Of a stretch of 64,000 bases of DNA, positions 1,143 to 10,444 are shown piece after piece. Location of the stretch: assembly GCA_016841745.1 (NCBI GenBank), contig JAENYO010000005.1, positions 84,439 to 148,438 of the forward strand. Reading direction: 5' to 3'. Position numbers and translations under genes: made by a program. The notes below the pieces were generated by a model. It searched no databases. It was not told where the DNA came from and saw only the letters and a program-made list of their open reading frames with translations. Source of the stretch: Acetomicrobium hydrogeniformans (GTDB taxonomy: Bacteria; Synergistota; Synergistia; Synergistales; JAFGMB01). Each line of letters opens with the position of its first letter. The first letter of the stretch is position 1.

Positions 1143-1182
1143 AATGGGGTCAGACCTTGATTTTAACCGTATGTATACTATT
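1143..1182 (-). repeat. Copy 1 of a ~38-bp RAYT-associated repeat
   Basis: On the minus strand this reads AATAG-TATACATACGG, then TTAAAATCAAGGTCTGACC, then CCATT. The same core recurs at 2995-3034 and 5852-5887. It contains the short palindrome GGTC-N-GACC. This copy is inverted relative to the other two and closes the segment carrying the SecB-like, PC4-like and transposase genes. Confidence 0.85.
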
Positions 1183-2132: not shown

Positions 2133-2984
2133 CTAATTCCTGAATTCTCTTACTGCTTTGCTTACAGTACTGTAGTGTACGCTGAAATACCTTGCGATCT
2201 CTGCCTGGCTGTAATTACCGGAAAAATATGCCTCTGCCATGGCCTCTTTGCGATTGGAATATTTTGCTTCAAAATCTTCCAGCTCTTTCAGAGGTTTACG
2301 TTTCTGTTCACGGAGAATACCGGAAAAATCCCCTTCAGAAAGAATCTTTTCCTGCATGGCAGATACAAAATCCTCATCTCCAAGGTATATCTGCTGCTGG
2401 ACACTTTTCATCAGGTTCGTTCCTCCTGTTATTCCATCCAGGATATAGGCCCTGTAAAGATCCTGTTTCTTTTTCAAACCTGACTTGCAGTCAGCCACAA
2501 CATTCAGGATCCACTCAGTGTTCAGCCATTCAGGAGAAGGATCCAACCCGACTGTTGATCTGTAACTGCTCCAGAACCAGTCTTCCGGTTTCTCAGCCAG
2601 TTCAGCCCTCACCGGATTCAGGACAACGTACCTGGCCAGTTCAAGGAGGTAATTTTCTTTATCTACAAGAATGGATTTGTACCGGCCCTGGAAAAGATGT
2701 CCAGTTCGGCCATGGGTGTGGTTGAAAGACTGGGTATATATTCCGTTGAGGAGTCTCATTCCCTCAGAAAGAGTAGCTCGAGGTGTTTCAATAACAAAAT
2801 GGTAGTGGTTATCCATAAAACACCATGCATAGGTGATCCATTTCAGCCTGTCATTGATATCACTATAGATCTGAAGAAAACGATTCCGATCGTTGTCATT
2901 CAGAAATATCTGCTGTTTGTTGTCACCCCGTGATATCACATGATAGAGAGCTCCGGGAAACTCTATTCTAAGTGGTCTGGCCAT
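2133..2984 (-). CDS. REP-associated tyrosine transposase (RAYT, Y1_Tnp family)
   Basis: Protein of 283 residues. The N-terminus MARPLRIEFPGALYHV and the following ISRG are typical of RAYT proteins. The HUH metal site is DNHYHFVIE, and the motif ARYVVLNPVRA carries the Tyr expected to be the nucleophile. A C-terminal helix-turn-helix (YSQAEIARYFSVHYSTVSKA) is present. RAYTs nick and move single-stranded DNA at short palindromic repeats and are often domesticated. The frame is open to 3020, but the extra residues are encoded by the repeat itself, so the ATG at 2984 is preferred. A 38-bp repeat begins 11 bp upstream of this start; two more copies lie nearby. It appears intact. Confidence 0.9.
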   Translation of the reverse strand: MARPLRIEFPGALYHVISRGDNKQQIFLNDNDRNRFLQIYSDINDRLKWITYAWCFMDNHYHFVIETPRATLSEGMRLLNGIYTQSFNHTHGRTGHLFQGRYKSILVDKENYLLELARYVVLNPVRAELAEKPEDWFWSSYRSTVGLDPSPEWLNTEWILNVVADCKSGLKKKQDLYRAYILDGITGGTNLMKSVQQQIYLGDEDFVSAMQEKILSEGDFSGILREQKRKPLKELEDFEAKYSNRKEAMAEAYFSGNYSQAEIARYFSVHYSTVSKAVREFRN

Positions 2985-2994
2985 AATTGAGTAT

Positions 2995-3034
2995 AATAGC
3001 ATACATACGGTTAAAATCAAGGTCTGACCCCATT
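2995..3034 (+). repeat. Copy 2 of the RAYT-associated repeat
   Basis: Reads AATAG-CATACATACGG, TTAAAATCAAGGTCTGACC, CCATT. It is identical to copy 1 except for one base (T to C after AATAG) and lies immediately upstream of the transposase start, in inverted orientation to copy 1. Confidence 0.85.
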
Positions 3035-3147
3035 CTTATAGGACCTGAGTCCCTTTATGATGATACACAAGTCCCGATAAAAGATTACGAAATACTGTAT
3101 AGTGATATGTATTATTTTTGTAATTTTTGAAAAATCATTCAACTTTA

Positions 3148-3236
3148 TATGAAGCAAAGGCAAAACCGTCGAAAGGCGGTGACGCAAAGCCACGGATCTA
3201 AAGCCTTAAAAGGCTATGACCGCCGGGCTGCCGACA
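3148..3236 (+). ncRNA. Cyclic di-GMP-I (GEMM-I) riboswitch aptamer
   Basis: The class-I c-di-GMP aptamer landmarks appear in order: GGCAAAACC, a GAAA tetraloop closed by CCGTC and GGCGG, the highly conserved GACGCAAAGCC, then ACGGATCTAAAG, a small hairpin (CCTT/AAGG), CTATGACCGCCGG and the closing GCTGCC that pairs with the 5' GGCA region. It lies about 180 bp upstream of the start of the repeat-rich Synerg-CTERM gene on the same strand and is followed at 3264 by a terminator hairpin, forming a complete ligand-controlled leader. Whether ligand turns the gene on or off cannot be told from the sequence alone. Confidence 0.95.
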
Positions 3237-3263
3237 TTCTTTATTTGCCCTTCTATAACTTAA

Positions 3264-3291
3264 CCCCGGGCAGAAAACCCGGGGTTTTTTT
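3264..3291 (+). terminator. Rho-independent terminator, expression platform of the c-di-GMP riboswitch
   Basis: CCCCGGG, a seven-base loop, CCCGGGG, then seven T. It sits 28 bp after the aptamer and 123 bp before the start codon, so ligand-dependent termination is the likely mechanism. Confidence 0.9.
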
Positions 3292-3413
3292 ATTACCTGA
3301 CCATGAAAGGAGGAATAGTTGCCCTTCTATTAAGAAAAGGGGCCAGTATAGAACATGTAATTGAGAGAGAACATCCAACCTGAGCAGTACATCAAACAAA
3401 GGAGAGATGATCC

Positions 3414-5744
3414 ATGCGCAGATTATGTTTAGCTTTATTATTGTTAATGTTCTTTGTCTTGCCCGTTTCTGCCCTTGAGTTCGTAACAGAAACGGTGGAT
3501 GAAGGAAGTATACAGGGTTATTTCACTTCCCTCGTAATAGATAGTGAAGGCAACCCTCATATTTCCTTCATAGGGAATGATCATAAGTCATTAAAATATG
3601 CCCATTTTAACAGCCAGGACTGGATCGTCCAGACAGTAGATATGGCTGCCGATGATTTATATCGGTTCGGAAACGCTACTTCTATTGCTCTCGACCAGAA
3701 CGGGTATCCCCATATCAGCTACTATGCCGGCTGTAATAACAATGACCTTAAATATGCATGGTTTGACGGTTCTGAATGGCACACAGAGACCGCTGACAGT
3801 AAAGGAAACGTCGGTAAACACTCATCCATAGCCATCGACTCCCTGGGAAACCCCCATATCGGATACCATACATATGATACATATGATTTGAAGTATGCAA
3901 AAAAAATTGACAACAGCTGGATCATTGAAACTGTAGTATCTGACGATGCTTATTGTACACATAGTTCCATGACCCTCGATAACAATGACCACCCCCATTT
4001 CAGCTATAAATATAAAGATAACGATTGCAACCTTTATTACATAGCCTTTAACGGAACAGAATGGATGGAACCGGAACAGGTTGATCCAGACCTTTGCACA
4101 GGGCATCATTCTTCAATTACCCTTGATAGCGATGGAATACCCCATATCAGCTATGAAGACAACAATAACTCCGATCTGAAATATGCTTTTCTTTCCGGAG
4201 ACCAGTGGGTGACGTCTACTGTCAATTCTGAGACTTACGTATACGATGCTACTTCCATAAAGGTCGACTCCGATGGAAAGGTACATATAAGCTACTTCGA
4301 TTCTTCTTATGACGACTTGAAATACGCTTTCTTCAACGGAAATGACTGGACTTTTACCACTGTTGATTCAGATGGGTATGTTGGTCAGGATTCTTCTATT
4401 GCCCTGGATCCTTCAGGTAATCCCTCGATAAGTTACTACGACGGTAGCAACCAGGATCTTAAATATGCCTCTTTTGACGGCCAGGACTGGAATGTCCAGA
4501 CCGTTCCGATCGCAGGAGGACCTCGTGGATACTATCCGGATATAGCTCTTGATTCGGCTGAAAATCCACATATGGTCTATACCTCCCGAACCTACTACTA
4601 CGGTGACGATGATGACGATGACAGTCCTGTCTTCTATGCCTACCATGATGGCACCGAGTGGAAAAAAGAGGTTATTGCTATGGGCGACAGTGATAATGGT
4701 GCATCCCTGGCTATGGATGACAATAACGTTCCCCATGTAGCCTATGGAGACAGCGCTTATTCTCCGGAAACAGGTTCCTATTCCGAGATCAGATATGGTG
4801 TCCTTTCAAACGGTAGCTGGGAATTTGAAACAGTGGCTTTCGGTGACAGCTATACTTCCCTGGCCGTAGAGGGAAATGGAACTCCCCATATCTCTTTTGT
4901 TGGCGGAAGCGATCTCGAACCTGCAGAACTCGGATCTTCCGCATCATATTCTGATATTCTCTGTTACGGTGTAAAAAGTGGAGATTCCTGGAATATCACA
5001 TCTGTAGATAATGCTAATGGAGAATTCAGGCAGAATACCATCGCCCTCGATTCTGACAATAACCCACATATATGCTATTTCAACTATGATTATTACGATA
5101 GCGAATATCAATTAAAGTACGCCGTTGATTTAAATGGCAGCTGGGATATACAAACCGTTATATCCGATATACGGGTTGAGGCATTTGATTTAGCCATAGA
5201 TGAAACTGGTACACCTCATATCGCTCTGGTAAAACCGGTTGAGGACCTTGAAGATAGGTCTTTAGAACCATCTGGGCCAAGTAATTATGAACTTGCCTAC
5301 GCTACCCTGATCGGTGACGAATGGTCAATGGAGACGGTTGAGAGCCTCGGCTATTTTTCTGACGGAAAGATCTCCATGGAACTGGATAGTAATAATAATC
5401 CACACATAACCTATGGCTCAAGACCAATGGATATGCGTAGATCCGAGACTGGTATCGAAGATGGAACTGAACTCAAATATGCCTATTACGATGGGTCATC
5501 CTGGCATACTGCCGTTCTGAACACAGGCTCCGATAGTTATTTCGGCAGATACTCTTCCCTTGTCCTGGACAGTTCAGCTATTCCCCATATCGCATACTTT
5601 ACAGGAACTGGTGTGGGTTACGGGACAGTGGAAGGTCTGGACTTTTCCTCCTCCAGCGGAGGATCCTGTGGAGTTGCTATCTTCACACCCTCCCTGTTAC
5701 TGCTTGTACTGCCTCTAGTGGGGCTAATGAAAAAAAGTAACTAG
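3414..5744 (+). CDS. Exported propeller-type repeat protein with Synerg-CTERM sorting signal
   Basis: Protein of 776 residues. A signal peptide (residues 1-20, ending VSALEF) is followed by about a dozen repeats of ~50 residues. The repeat core is SIALDSxGNPHISYxD, then LKYAxFxGxxW, then a strand ending TVDS. These resemble the BNR/beta-propeller-like repeats of secreted proteins, so the mature protein is probably an all-beta extracellular or surface adhesin-like molecule; no catalytic site is visible. An Asp-rich insertion (six Asp in a row near residue 400) may bind cations. The tail SSSSGGSCGVAIF, a hydrophobic helix and KKSN form the Synerg-CTERM signal. The start has AAAGGAGAG seven bases upstream. 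It is controlled by the upstream c-di-GMP-I riboswitch and has its own terminator. Confidence 0.85.
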   Translation: MRRLCLALLLLMFFVLPVSALEFVTETVDEGSIQGYFTSLVIDSEGNPHISFIGNDHKSLKYAHFNSQDWIVQTVDMAADDLYRFGNATSIALDQNGYPHISYYAGCNNNDLKYAWFDGSEWHTETADSKGNVGKHSSIAIDSLGNPHIGYHTYDTYDLKYAKKIDNSWIIETVVSDDAYCTHSSMTLDNNDHPHFSYKYKDNDCNLYYIAFNGTEWMEPEQVDPDLCTGHHSSITLDSDGIPHISYEDNNNSDLKYAFLSGDQWVTSTVNSETYVYDATSIKVDSDGKVHISYFDSSYDDLKYAFFNGNDWTFTTVDSDGYVGQDSSIALDPSGNPSISYYDGSNQDLKYASFDGQDWNVQTVPIAGGPRGYYPDIALDSAENPHMVYTSRTYYYGDDDDDDSPVFYAYHDGTEWKKEVIAMGDSDNGASLAMDDNNVPHVAYGDSAYSPETGSYSEIRYGVLSNGSWEFETVAFGDSYTSLAVEGNGTPHISFVGGSDLEPAELGSSASYSDILCYGVKSGDSWNITSVDNANGEFRQNTIALDSDNNPHICYFNYDYYDSEYQLKYAVDLNGSWDIQTVISDIRVEAFDLAIDETGTPHIALVKPVEDLEDRSLEPSGPSNYELAYATLIGDEWSMETVESLGYFSDGKISMELDSNNNPHITYGSRPMDMRRSETGIEDGTELKYAYYDGSSWHTAVLNTGSDSYFGRYSSLVLDSSAIPHIAYFTGTGVGYGTVEGLDFSSSSGGSCGVAIFTPSLLLLVLPLVGLMKKSN

Positions 5745-5770
5745 CTTCTAATACAATATATTCGTGTTAA

Positions 5771-5803
5771 ATGAGGGCGGGCAACTTCCGCCCTCATTTT
5801 TAT
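5771..5803 (+). terminator. Rho-independent terminator after the repeat protein gene
   Basis: ATGAGGGCGG, a seven-base loop, CCGCCCTCAT, then a T-rich run. It separates this gene from the peptidase gene, so the two are not obviously cotranscribed. Confidence 0.9.
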
Positions 5804-5851: not shown

Positions 5852-5887
5852 GTATACATACGGTTAAAATCAAGGTCTGACCCCATT
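5852..5887 (+). repeat. Copy 3 of the RAYT-associated repeat (solo copy)
   Basis: GTATACATACGG, TTAAAATCAAGGTCTGACC, CCATT; identical to the core of copies 1 and 2. No transposase lies beside it. It is in direct orientation with copy 2, so the two bracket the riboswitch-controlled gene, and it ends 14 bp before the -35 box of the peptidase promoter. Confidence 0.85.
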
Positions 5888-5929: not shown

Positions 5930-5991
5930 TCAGAACATACCTTTTGCTTTCACATATACTTATCTTACGTCGAAGGGAGCTTATACCTTAT

Positions 5992-8076
5992 ATGAAGCAT
6001 TATCTCTGGAAAAATATACTTTCTCTCACATTATGTTTAATCCTTCTTCTACTATTATCCTCATCGGCCCTGGCCGGAAGCTTTGCCCCCCTTAACCCGG
6101 CTTTTATCCAATACCAGGAGGAACAGAAATTCAAACCATCAGGTACTGGATTCACCTTTCCTGGAAGAACCCCTTCCCCCGTAGACCTGTCACACCTCAA
6201 AGGTATATCCCTTTCGGCACAGGTTCAGGAATATCCGGCAAGTTACGACCTGAGGGAACTTGGATTTGTATCTCCCATAAGAAACCAGAACCCCTACGGC
6301 TCATGCTGGACCTTCGGTGCCCTTGCCTCCCTGGAATCTACATCCCTAAAACTTATGGGAAAAGAACTCGATCTTTCGGAGCGCTACATGATGTACTTTG
6401 CCTACATCGACGAGCTGGACCTTCCGGGTTTCGACAACTGTACTTCTGCAGACTTTCCATGGACCGCTAATTTCGGGGGAGATGATTACAAGGCCACGGC
6501 ACTTCTTTCTCGATGGACCGGAGCTGTTCTGGAAGAAGATGCTCCCTATGATGATCTGGGATGTATCCCCACAGGCTTTGAGAATGACGCAATTCACCTT
6601 CAACAGGTACTCTATCTGCCCATGGATCAGGAGACCCGATATCCAAAGGCAAACATAAACAATATCAAATATGCCCTCACAAATTACGGAGCTGTGGCAG
6701 TTGGAGTCTATGCCGATGATGCCATGGCAGGATACAGTCCATCTTCTGATTACTACAAGCCTTCAACATGCGCTGCCTACATACCGGAAGACAATCCCGA
6801 TAACCTTACTGTTGGCTGGGCCAACCACGAGGTAAGTATAGTGGGATGGGATGATAATTTTGCATCAGCCGACTTTGCTACCCAGCCTCCGGGAAACGGC
6901 GCATGGATCGTAAGGAACAGCTGGGGAGAGGGCTGGGGAGATAATGGATATTATTACCTTTCATACTATGATGCCCTTCTCGATACCGGTGCTGCCTATA
7001 TTGGAGAAGAGCCCGATAATTACCGAAATATATACCAGTACGACCCCCTGGGGTGGATCATCAGTTATTCACCGGTTGATCAGGGAGATGAAACAGCCTG
7101 GTTCGCAAATGTATTCACTTCACAGCAGACGGAAGTTCTCAAGGCTGTAAGTTTCTACGCCGGCGGAGTGAACAATACTTACGAGATCTACATCTATGAC
7201 AGCATAGGGGGCGAACTGATATACGGCCCCCAGGCAGGAACAATCAATGAACCAGGTTACCACACCATTTCCCTCGATGTTCCCATTCTTTTCGAGGAAG
7301 GATATGACCTTGCTATTGCTGTAAAACTCACAACACCAGGATACGAGTATCCCATAGCCATAGAATTTAACATTTCAGGTTATAGTGATAAAGCTTCTGC
7401 CCTTCCGGGTCAGAGTTACGTAAGCCTGGATGGACAGAACTGGACAGACACCACAACTATCAAAACCTCATTGAATGTCTGCCTGAAGGTTTTTTCGGGA
7501 CCTGTGAATCTTTATATTCCAGGACTGGAGAATATCAGTTATACGGACCTTACTTTAACTTCCTCTGCGGAACCAGCCCTTGAAAAGGCACAGGAAGCTA
7601 TAGAAACCATTCTTCCATCTTCCCTGGGTATTGGGGCGGGCTCTTTCAATATCCTTGGGCTTATGGATTACAGGGTCATCTCCGGGAACCTGGCCTCAAT
7701 CGGGACCGACATCGGGATGGAAAACTCTATCCTTCCTTCCCTGAGCCAGGAAGGCCAGGAAAGGCTCATTTTCCTCCTGGCCTGGAATTATGAAACAGAT
7801 AGTTTTGACCTGCTCTCAATAACCGGATCTGAAACCCTTTCAACATCTGAACAGGTTTCACCGATCCAGATAAACGACGGGGGAACCTACGAATCACCCC
7901 GGGAAGAGGATTTCTTTCTCAGTAACATGAAAGTGATGGAAGTTCTGGTAGAGGGGGTTCCTGTCGAGGATATTCCCACTTCAGGAGGCGGCGGAGGTGG
8001 CTGTTTAACAACTTCTTCTCCAGCTTCTGCAATATTTATTCTCCCTTTACTCATAATCCTGCTGGGGAAAAGGTAA
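5992..8076 (+). CDS. Papain-type (C1) cysteine peptidase with lectin-like domain and Synerg-CTERM signal
   Basis: Counting from the ATG at 5992 (GGGAGC upstream; the open frame reaches back to a TTG at 5944), the 694-residue product has a signal peptide (1-29) and a short pro-region. The C1A catalytic core has oxyanion Gln99, Cys105 in GSCWTFG, His279 in NHEVSIVGWDD and Asn309 in VRNSWGEGWG, so all catalytic residues are present. A beta-rich lectin-like domain often paired with bacterial C1 peptidases follows (from about residue 345). Then comes a less conserved region, and the C-terminus SGGGGGGCLTTSS plus a hydrophobic helix and GKR is a Synerg-CTERM signal. It should act outside the cell or on the surface, degrading peptides or processing surface proteins. 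Confidence 0.92.
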   Translation: MKHYLWKNILSLTLCLILLLLLSSSALAGSFAPLNPAFIQYQEEQKFKPSGTGFTFPGRTPSPVDLSHLKGISLSAQVQEYPASYDLRELGFVSPIRNQNPYGSCWTFGALASLESTSLKLMGKELDLSERYMMYFAYIDELDLPGFDNCTSADFPWTANFGGDDYKATALLSRWTGAVLEEDAPYDDLGCIPTGFENDAIHLQQVLYLPMDQETRYPKANINNIKYALTNYGAVAVGVYADDAMAGYSPSSDYYKPSTCAAYIPEDNPDNLTVGWANHEVSIVGWDDNFASADFATQPPGNGAWIVRNSWGEGWGDNGYYYLSYYDALLDTGAAYIGEEPDNYRNIYQYDPLGWIISYSPVDQGDETAWFANVFTSQQTEVLKAVSFYAGGVNNTYEIYIYDSIGGELIYGPQAGTINEPGYHTISLDVPILFEEGYDLAIAVKLTTPGYEYPIAIEFNISGYSDKASALPGQSYVSLDGQNWTDTTTIKTSLNVCLKVFSGPVNLYIPGLENISYTDLTLTSSAEPALEKAQEAIETILPSSLGIGAGSFNILGLMDYRVISGNLASIGTDIGMENSILPSLSQEGQERLIFLLAWNYETDSFDLLSITGSETLSTSEQVSPIQINDGGTYESPREEDFFLSNMKVMEVLVEGVPVEDIPTSGGGGGGCLTTSSPASAIFILPLLIILLGKR

Positions 8077-8139: not shown

Positions 8140-8554
8140 TAACTACTTCACAGAATATTAAAGAATGAAAGAACATTTTCATTGTACACACATATTGATA
8201 AGAACAAATTATAGTTCCATTACTCTCTCTCAGAATCAAAAAAGAAACACTTAAGAAACTTTTAGAGGAGAGATATCCAGTCTTTTGAACTTTCCTTAAT
8301 ATATTTTAACTTGCAATAAATAATCTTTATCCATATAATTAGAGTGTTAGTATTGTAACTATTAAACATATAGAATCGAATGTGTTTTAACTGCTAAACT
8401 ACAATTTCTTCTTATTGCAATTTCACCTTCTGATATCCAACTCCTTATTACAATACAAAAGCCCTTCGTTCTAAAAAGGAAAACTCTAACTTGTTTATTC
8501 CTTTCTTTCCTCACTGTTTTTTCCAGAAAAAATTGTTATGGAAAGGTTGTGAAA
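8140..8554. other. AT-rich intergenic leader, no gene seen
   Basis: About 415 bp without a convincing reading frame. It holds the promoter at 8311-8339 and a ~200-nt transcribed leader. I looked for a second c-di-GMP aptamer or other riboswitch signature and saw none. Confidence 0.6.
8311..8339 (+). promoter_or_regulatory. Sigma-70-type promoter for the third Synerg-CTERM gene
   Basis: TTGCAA, 17 bp, TATAAT. It implies a ~205-nt untranslated leader, long enough to carry regulation. Confidence 0.6.
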
Positions 8555-10444
8555 ATGGTGAAGATGACACAAAAAGTATTTCTATTACTGTTTTTCTCTG
8601 TTTTGTTGCTTCTGGGTGGTGTAAGTACTTCATATTCATTTCTTTCCCCATGTGACAGTCCATTAACTCTTCCAGAAACTGTTAACATATCTGTATTCCT
8701 TCACTCAACAAGCTACCTGAGAACGGTAATTCATGATAACCCTCCAGGAAATTCTCTCGACGAAGGCTCCAGGTGTTACGAGACTTGGAACATCAACATC
8801 AGCAAAACCCTGACCTGTGGACAAAATTACGCTGGATCGGTAATTTCTTCAGATTTCTATCTTTCCTCTGGATGGCCGGAGTACTCCCCACTTCCCGAAG
8901 AACCCGAAAAAGGAACATGGGAACTTATAACATGGCTGCTCAATCATAAAGGATCAGGCAGCCGCGAAGATATCCAGAATGCCATGTGGTATTTCACAAA
9001 TAATGATAATTCAGAAGTAAGAAATTTTATTCGCGGTGATTCTGAAGCTTTCGGACTTGTCCAGGGTGCTTACGAAGCAGTTTATGATACTGTAATTTCT
9101 ACAGACAACATCAGTGATGATATTCTTCCAGGATCTTACCTGGGTTACGATCTTTGTGCCGATACGGACTTGGATTCCAAAGGACGTATTTTCCCATTGA
9201 TCCTTTGCCCAGGAGGCCTTTCTAACGGAGAATGCTCAAATCAGATGCTCATCCTTGAATATTCGAATATCTATTTGCCAGAACTTTTCGTAACAAAGTT
9301 TTATGACTCAAACTTTAATTCATGGCATGATTTGCCTGAAGAACCCTGGCTCAACATGATGCCATGGACATTTCTCCTGAAATGTCCAGAGGGTATCACC
9401 CATTTCAGCTTCGACAACCTTATAGATCCAGATGCCCCTGACGTTCTGACAAATGATAAATGGTATATCCTTTGCCCTGGAAAATATTCCATTGAAGAAC
9501 CCCTGTATCCACCTTATATTTATCCGGAAATGATGGATAAATGGATGGCAACCACTCCGAATCCTCTTGAAATTGAAATTTATGCCAACACCTGCTCTCC
9601 ATCACTACGTTGGGTCTGTTTTGGGAATATTTGTGTCGATGACCCAGGCCATACACCTGGATTCTGGTCAAATTACCCCAAGAACTGGGACAAGGTGGAC
9701 TTTGGATCCATGTCAGGACCCCAAATCCTTGCAGAGCTGGACAAACTGAATCTGAAGTATTTTGACAAGGACACGGATACCCTGATGGAATTTCATCCTT
9801 CTGCCTTTGGAGGAAAGAAGGGGTACGAACCTGTAGAAGGTTCTACTCATAACCTGATCCCCTGGATAAGGAAAAGTAATGCAAAAGCTATGGAATATAA
9901 GCTTTCCTGCCACTTGGTCGCCATGAAACTGAACCTGCTTGCTCAGGACGATAAGAAACAGAATTTTGTGGAATCAGGCAGTCTTATCTATGTTCCTGAT
10001 CTTGAAGGTTACAAAGACTGCATAATAAACTATTTCGGATCACTGGACTACAGCCTTATAGATGGTGAACTGTTTCTGGAGCCAGGCGTCAGATTCAGTC
10101 TGATCATGAAGATCGAGGATCTCATAACCCTGTCAGCAGAAGCCCTGAAAGGAGAACCTTCAGGATGGGATGAAGGCTCATGCGGGAAATACAGCGACTT
10201 TCTCAATGCCCTGCATTTGGCCCTCATGCATGGAAACGAGAATGTATCCAAAGAAGGGGAAACGATTATTTATTTCTGGCCCCTTGAGGAATGCGGATTT
10301 GAAAGTCCATTCCTTTCTGCCGCAGCTCTGAACAATAGCGCACCTATAAGTTCCGGAGGAGGCGGGGGCGGGTGTAATACCGGATCCTCATCACTGGGAT
10401 CCCTTATTCTTCTAATACCCATGATCTTGTTCTTTAAATTCTAA
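8555..10444 (+). CDS. Large exported protein with Synerg-CTERM signal and TPGFW-type domain
   Basis: About 629 residues from the ATG at 8555 (GAAAGG eight bases upstream; GTG 8549 and ATG 8564 are alternatives). A signal peptide covers roughly 1-27. The N-terminal half has a Cys-containing region with ELITWLLNHKGSGSREDIQ and NAMWYF, reminiscent of thioester-type or cell-surface anchor domains. The C-terminal half contains GHTPGFWSNYPKNW and, later, CHLVAMKLNLLAQ, a pattern seen in exported proteins of PEP-CTERM and related bacteria (TPGYWKNHPE...AAKLN). The tail SSGGGGGGCNTGSS, a hydrophobic helix and FKF form the sorting signal. No enzymatic motif was recognised. Surface structural protein is an inference. 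Confidence 0.8.
   Translation: MVKMTQKVFLLLFFSVLLLLGGVSTSYSFLSPCDSPLTLPETVNISVFLHSTSYLRTVIHDNPPGNSLDEGSRCYETWNINISKTLTCGQNYAGSVISSDFYLSSGWPEYSPLPEEPEKGTWELITWLLNHKGSGSREDIQNAMWYFTNNDNSEVRNFIRGDSEAFGLVQGAYEAVYDTVISTDNISDDILPGSYLGYDLCADTDLDSKGRIFPLILCPGGLSNGECSNQMLILEYSNIYLPELFVTKFYDSNFNSWHDLPEEPWLNMMPWTFLLKCPEGITHFSFDNLIDPDAPDVLTNDKWYILCPGKYSIEEPLYPPYIYPEMMDKWMATTPNPLEIEIYANTCSPSLRWVCFGNICVDDPGHTPGFWSNYPKNWDKVDFGSMSGPQILAELDKLNLKYFDKDTDTLMEFHPSAFGGKKGYEPVEGSTHNLIPWIRKSNAKAMEYKLSCHLVAMKLNLLAQDDKKQNFVESGSLIYVPDLEGYKDCIINYFGSLDYSLIDGELFLEPGVRFSLIMKIEDLITLSAEALKGEPSGWDEGSCGKYSDFLNALHLALMHGNENVSKEGETIIYFWPLEECGFESPFLSAAALNNSAPISSGGGGGGCNTGSSSLGSLILLIPMILFFKF

Follow-up and report, generated by a model that had tools for sequence, protein, structure and literature searches.

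We analysed a 64,000-nt stretch of the Acetomicrobium hydrogeniformans genome (contig JAENYO010000005.1; the whole stretch is called the window here) in which a cyclic di-GMP (c-di-GMP) class I riboswitch aptamer, also known as GEMM-I, lies in front of a terminator and of a gene for a predicted secreted protein with a sorting-like C-terminal tail of the Synerg-CTERM kind. The reading that we consider reasonably probable is that this leader acts as a transcriptional ON riboswitch for one monocistronic surface-protein gene, and that it belongs to a set of five leader cassette copies within a regulon of 19 aptamers. The mechanism is a known one in a new place, familiar from Gram-positive sortase substrates; specialists would turn to the regulon and to the copied cassette. 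If correct, this reading would connect c-di-GMP, in a lineage of Gram-negative type, with a large group of C-terminally sorted surface proteins that has received little study, and would give a testable handle on the timing of Synerg-CTERM display. The 19 aptamers and the cassette copies in a 3-Mb genome also form a natural series for the divergence of expression platforms under a fixed aptamer.

Aptamer, terminator and controlled protein

The unit consists of the following features:

3149-3235, plus strand: c-di-GMP-I (GEMM-I) riboswitch aptamer (RF01051 over the complete model, positions 1-87; 88.2 bits, cut-off 35, E 3.9e-16)
3262-3286, with T residues continuing to 3291, plus strand: intrinsic leader terminator (9-bp stem with 7 GC pairs, loop CAGAAAA)
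3414-5744, plus strand: controlled gene for a 776-residue signal-peptide protein with about 13 propeller-like repeats, BNR_4-like (from the open reading frame (ORF), Pfam and a motif count)
5646-5741, plus strand: C-terminal tail, composed of SSSSGGSCGVA, a hydrophobic stretch and KK, Synerg-CTERM-like by a genome-specific tail profile
5769-5799, plus strand: terminator 3' of the controlled gene (13-pair stem, then TTATTT)

A preliminary description of this DNA, made from its letters alone, had proposed a GEMM-I aptamer, to be checked with a covariance model, and a terminator 28 bp beyond it. The covariance model confirmed the aptamer over its full length, far above the cut-off. This is the sole Rfam match at gathering level in the window, its core positions show no loss relative to the RF01051 model, and its score is the highest among the 19 GEMM-I aptamers of the genome. 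The terminator was likewise present, although the gap between aptamer and terminator stem is 26 nt and not 28. By themselves, terminator-like sites are no rarity in the region (9 against an expected 7.1); the fold of the leader as a whole (3124-3296) surpassed those of all 200 of 200 dinucleotide-shuffled sequences, with a z-score of -3.98. A consensus scan detected no sigma-70-like promoter of at least 9 of 12 matching positions in front of the aptamer, which counts against the proposed control. AT-rich blocks are conserved upstream of the aptamer and did not resolve into a promoter. The same scan detected no promoter-like site between the leader terminator and the start codon at 3414, which is preceded by AGGAG at 3400-3404. 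The 13-pair terminator beyond the gene suggests that the unit is monocistronic.

GEMM-I variants specific for 3',3'-cyclic GMP-AMP (cGAMP) exist, and an aptamer of this GEMM-Ib type would sense that nucleotide instead of c-di-GMP. We regard such specificity as highly improbable here. Within the clan, c-di-GMP-I is the Rfam family that matches best, and the window has G at 3160 and C at 3231, which we take to correspond to G20 and C92 in Vc2.

The 776-residue protein begins with a stretch that by eye resembles a signal peptide, and it contains 13 PHISY-like motifs spaced mostly 47-62 residues apart, together with a Pfam BNR_4 match (E 4.2e-15). No sequence match was found for it in PDB. A single-sequence AlphaFold2 model was all-beta and poor (mean predicted local distance difference test score 63.5, predicted template modelling (TM) score 0.48). 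When this model was searched with Foldseek, the top matches were the fucose-binding propeller lectins PLL and PHL of Photorhabdus, with E 2.6e-13 and query TM-scores of 0.19-0.27. These matches support a propeller fold as modelled; they give only a hint of sugar binding. The suggestion that the protein is a likely adhesin or matrix component thus gained little: the propeller-like repeats and the lectin matches speak for it, whereas the poor model and the low TM-scores speak against it. The same genome encodes a paralogue at C4:234717 (42% identity), and the sister genus has a homologue (G001:C24:1967, 40% identity); no match was found in the other 39 of the 41 genomes of the order that were searched. 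A scan of contigs for further relatives returned a single match, an archaeal metagenome-assembled contig with a 33% identical propeller, which is uninformative on regulation.

The tail had been described as a Synerg-CTERM sorting signal. This proved right in kind, although the window tail, SSSSGGSCGVAIFTPSLLLLVLPLVGLMKKSN, falls short of the TIGR04564 cut-off (14.2 against 22.5 bits, E 0.22, in a genome search), and a scan of this tail against NCBIfam with hmmscan returned no TIGR04564 match; both results weigh against the assignment. When the reference was instead a profile of 27 tails taken from other proteins that this genome encodes, the window tail scored 27.8 bits, and the best of 2000 shuffled versions of it reached 9.4 bits. 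Moreover, canonical tails are found on the paralogue at C4:234717 (GGGGCNVG) and on the sister-genus homologue (GGGSCNVG). From these sequence comparisons, a Synerg-CTERM-like sorting tail is plausible. The protein would then be exported and kept at the cell surface through this tail, where its propeller domain may bind a partner, perhaps a glycan.

Known sorting systems provide a comparison. Like MYXO-CTERM with myxosortase (PMC11980579) and GlyGly-CTERM with rhombosortase, Synerg-CTERM combines a short Cys- or Gly-containing motif, a hydrophobic helix and a basic end, and occurs on many secreted proteins per genome. It differs from both in having its own motif, GGGCN; the excerpt of PMC11980579 does not name this tail and gives no sorting enzyme for it. 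Elsewhere in the genome, an array of at least five Synerg-CTERM-like genes surrounds a CPBP-family protease (locus L125, C8:168000-186000; protease at C8:172405-173259). This protease was considered as a general sorting enzyme and rejected, since matches to it were found in only 2 of the 41 genomes of the order, although 23 of the 41 have the tail.

Switching elements and direction of control

Three segments of the leader could take part in switching:

3145-3164, plus strand: 5' strand of an anti-aptamer helix, made up of UUAUA, GAAG and the aptamer-core segment GGCAAA; paired with 3244-3258 in the minimum-energy fold
3244-3250, plus strand: switching element UUUGCCC, which pairs with the aptamer GGCAAA (3159-3164) or the terminator GGGCAGA in growing-transcript folding
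3268-3274, plus strand: GGGCAGA, from the 5' arm and loop of the terminator, proposed 3' strand of an antiterminator; identical GGGCAGAA in four of five cassettes

In the minimum-energy fold of the leader, 3244-3258 (UUUGCC-CUUC-UAUAA) is paired with 3145-3164; this pairing disrupts the core of the aptamer, and the terminator is formed. When the aptamer pairs were enforced (referred to as bound-shape) in a transcript extending to the 5' arm of the terminator, UUUGCCC paired with GGGCAGA as an antiterminator. In ensembles of growing transcripts, the probability of the antiterminator at an end 46 nt past the aptamer (+46) was 0.09 for the free and 0.75 for the bound-shape RNA, with corresponding terminator probabilities of 0.91 and 0.24; at +36 the antiterminator again prevailed in the bound-shape ensemble (0.69 against 0.11). 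According to the model that these folds suggest, at low c-di-GMP 3244-3258 would pair with the UUAUA-GAAG-GGCAAA segment on the 5' side of the aptamer, breaking its core, and the terminator at 3262-3286 would stop RNA polymerase. At high c-di-GMP, bound ligand would hold GGCAAA within the aptamer and thereby leave UUUGCCC free for GGGCAGA of the terminator arm, and the resulting antiterminator would let polymerase read through, turning the gene on.

Several of the folding results weigh against this ON model. The contrast between free and bound-shape ensembles in the ON direction is clear at +36 and +46 only, and between these, at +38 to +44, the free ensemble too favours the antiterminator (0.93-0.98). 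For each of the four cassettes folded, the full-length transcript thermodynamically favours the terminator, whether the ensemble is free or bound-shape. Since the terminator prevails in both from +48 on, switching would have to be kinetic. The difference at intermediate lengths is clear for the window leader alone and negligible in the three other cassettes. Moreover, the GGCAAA/UUUGCC pairing is not kept in the paralogous leaders, which have UUCGCC or AGCAAA, and the fifth cassette (C4:237273) is without UUYGCCC.

The same folds can be read as an OFF switch. Specifically, the ligand would stabilise the aptamer together with an extended P1 helix (GAAGCAAA paired with UUUGC..UUC), UUUGCCC would be withdrawn from the antiterminator, the terminator would form, and the protein would be made at low c-di-GMP. 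Indeed, the GAAGCAAA/UUUGC..UUC helix appears in the bound-shape folds at an end of +29, before the terminator arm is transcribed, and again at full length, and the dominance of the antiterminator in the free ensemble at +38 to +44 fits this scheme as well. The bound-shape preference for the antiterminator at +36 and +46 does not. In Clostridioides difficile, all seven of seven functional class I switches are OFF (PMC6366702), which supports the OFF scheme and counts against ON. There, the display of anchored surface proteins is likewise set by c-di-GMP riboswitches, with CD2831 and CD3246 under class II and the protease ZmpI/PPEP-1 under class I riboswitches. It differs from the arrangement in the window in that the anchored proteins are sortase substrates under class II aptamers, the class I switches are OFF, and a releasing protease is part of the system (PMC6366702). 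The closest known arrangement, a class I aptamer and terminator before an anchored adhesin, is the Bc2/cap leader of Bacillus thuringiensis BMB171, which precedes the gene for a collagen adhesion protein and was tested to be an ON switch acting through an antiterminator (PMC4933901). Bc2/cap shares with the window a class I aptamer, a leader terminator and a downstream signal-peptide repeat protein with a C-terminal sorting tail. It differs in that its tail is an LPXTG signal for sortase A and the Gram-positive wall, whereas the tail here is an unrelated Gly-Cys and hydrophobic one, and in that its target is a Cna-like adhesin instead of a propeller (PMC4933901).

Folding leaves the direction unsettled. 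We nevertheless favour ON with moderate confidence, as about twice as probable as OFF, because UUYGCCC is kept in four of five cassettes and GGGCAGAA likewise in four of five; the tested Bc2/cap precedent adds to this. On balance we judge the OFF scheme to be somewhat unlikely.

The 12-mer TTGCCCTTCTAT, which holds the proposed switching element, occurs twice, at 3245-3256 and 3319-3330, on either side of the terminator. No such duplicate is expected from shuffles of the whole window, and its second copy lies in the read-through leader.

A copied leader cassette in a GEMM-I regulon

The window leader can be aligned with four leaders on contig C4 of the same genome over a stretch that starts roughly 100 nt before the aptamer and includes the terminator. 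Over the aptamer and 60-nt flanks, the four C4 leaders are 84, 82, 79 and 73% identical to that of the window, while the remaining 14 of the 18 aptamers compared are at most 61% identical to it. The terminator is recognisable in all five cassettes, and one of its stem pairs is A-T in the window and T-A in other cassettes, both sides having changed. Comparison of the cassettes also revealed a conserved element upstream:

3044-3075, plus strand: CCTGAGTCCC ... GTCCC, with partial dyad symmetry; candidate site for a regulator or piece of a promoter

A search of the 3.04-Mb genome with the pattern CCTGAGTCMC...GTCYC derived from this element gave four forward matches, each lying upstream of a cassette aptamer, and the reversed pattern, used as a control, gave one forward and one reverse match; the fifth cassette carries a variant form of the element. 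Judging from these alignments, the cassette is recently duplicated.

All four further cassettes precede tailed proteins, three of which are unrelated to the window protein in their main parts. The window protein is homologous to P234 (39% over most of their length). P228 and P231 form a second homologous pair (38%), and P228 matches the Chlam_PMP repeat. P237 has only C-terminal parts in common with the other cassette proteins. Proteins that are not all related are thus set between a shared leader and a shared tail. We tentatively extend this to the possibility, which falls somewhat short of being probable, that c-di-GMP riboswitches are the main controller of the Synerg-CTERM surface repertoire in this bacterial family, through a movable promoter-aptamer-terminator cassette copied before unrelated secreted proteins (a propeller, a Pmp-like beta-helix and others). 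If this is true, one second messenger would decide which sorted proteins coat the cell.

The genome contains 18 GEMM-I aptamers above the cut-off and a 19th at C3:248632, which reached 50.9 bits once a 60-nt insert in its P3 helix was spanned. We read the DNA downstream of all 19. Ten of them precede nine genes for tailed proteins, namely the window gene, four at C4:228-237 kb, three at C1:13-19 kb, of which one follows a tandem aptamer pair, and one at C7:674 kb. Downstream of the remaining nine aptamers are genes for a PAS/GAF histidine kinase, a MASE3-GGDEF protein, a PALP-family enzyme and proteins that are secreted or small and have no Pfam match, with one exception: the aptamer at C3:248632 has no same-strand gene for about 2 kb. 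There are 36 tail matches in the genome at E up to 1, 14 of them above the cut-off, and GEMM-I precedes nine of the 36 and five of the 14. Nine tailed genes among 17 controlled ones correspond to a hypergeometric P of about 5e-14, or about 1.6e-7 if the cassette paralogues are counted once; both values assume 2900 genes and are rough owing to the relatedness among genes. The genome also encodes ten GGDEF domains. Together, the aptamer, the terminator, the cassette paralogues and the ten GGDEF proteins lend good support to the earlier proposal that c-di-GMP controls the window gene through a terminator-type GEMM-I switch.

Other members of the regulon differ in architecture. Two aptamers in tandem (locus L022, C1:18018 and 18644) precede one Synerg-CTERM protein, with a counterpart in the sister genus (L081, G001:C143:4878 and 4487); in further families of the order, genomes G017, G039, G008 and G010 likewise have aptamers in close pairs. 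The aptamer before the MASE3-GGDEF gene (L025, C14:411753) has a sister-genus equivalent before a 45% identical homologue (L086, G001:C223:4505), an arrangement that could possibly provide feedback on c-di-GMP synthesis. A P3 insert of 53-60 nt is present in three GEMM-I aptamers (L018, C8:269065; L019, C3:248632; L075, G001:C243), with common flanks ACUAMAACGG ... CAGUCAGGCC; one such aptamer precedes a PALP-family enzyme gene in each genus. The leaders at C7:674030 (L020) and at C1:13648 and 15856 (L022) are without a terminator and show by eye a short hairpin adjacent to the ribosome-binding site, for example CCUAU...AUAGGGGAGG. Platforms of transcriptional and of translational appearance thus coexist in the regulon.

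Distribution in the order and neighbouring genes

The only other genus of the family compared is represented by one genome (G001, 86% complete). It contains 14 GEMM-I matches, one pair of which looks like a single place cut by a contig end. GEMM-I-preceded homologues were found there for 10 of the 17 controlled genes, four of them tailed, and none of these corresponds to the C4 cassette group. Upstream of the sister homologue of the window protein (L091, 1200-2000), neither a GEMM-I aptamer nor any other Rfam match was found, which counts against the proposed control.

This aptamer-free homologue and the recent duplication of the cassette would also suit a leader that is idle or decayed, in which a real aptamer was copied and its switching was lost, the gene being either driven from another site or always terminated. 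Such losses have a parallel in C. difficile, where 11 of 16 c-di-GMP riboswitches only are functional (PMC6366702). We consider an idle leader distinctly improbable, because the window aptamer is the best of the genome's 19 with its core intact, the scan detected no promoter-like site between terminator and start codon, and the switching elements are conserved in four of the five copies.

Across the order, GEMM-I was found in 19 of 120 genomes and Synerg-CTERM in 23 of 41. Both occur in five genomes outside the family (G017, G025, G032, G033 and G039), with 14 aptamers and 30 tails between them. None of the 28 of these 30 tails that could be checked lies near an aptamer, contig breaks in G025 and G032 limiting this count, and the closest aptamer and tail on one contig are about 13 kb apart on opposite strands. 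Since the two features are unlinked in these genomes, the link between GEMM-I and the tail belongs, within the sampled genomes, to the family rather than to the phylum, and it appears from these sequences to be lineage-specific. The attribution of this arrangement to the phylum at large was therefore too broad, the more so as the sister homologue is without the aptamer. The aptamer itself shows no difference from the RF01051 family; what is lineage-specific in the genomes searched is the leader cassette before several Synerg-CTERM-like proteins. Among the matches listed in a literature search, we found no description of a combined Synerg-CTERM and GEMM-I arrangement in Synergistetes. A related case is the SLH motif, a riboswitch candidate of Synergistaceae and Firmicutes for which the authors suggest c-di-GMP as a possible ligand (PMC6429828). 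It resembles the present system as a candidate RNA switch before surface-layer genes, Synergistetes included, and differs from it in being another RNA, located mostly before SLH-domain genes (PMC6429828).

The gene directly after the controlled one (ORF 5944-8076) encodes a C1 protease of the papain family that carries a Lectin_like domain and ends in a GGGGGGC tail, which scored 30.2 bits with the 27-tail profile. The next ORF, 8549-10444, has a tail of the same sort, with a TIGR04564 match of 18.2 bits. No Rfam match was found in front of either ORF. On the other side, a gene resembling transposases of the REP-associated tyrosine type adjoins the riboswitch (2133-3020, minus strand; NF047646, 76.3 bits against a cut-off of 80; Y1_Tnp). 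A 24-nt repeat occurs in three exact copies, at 1145-1168 (minus strand), 3009-3032 (plus strand) and 5862-5885 (plus strand), one of which sits between the transposase-like gene and the riboswitch leader.

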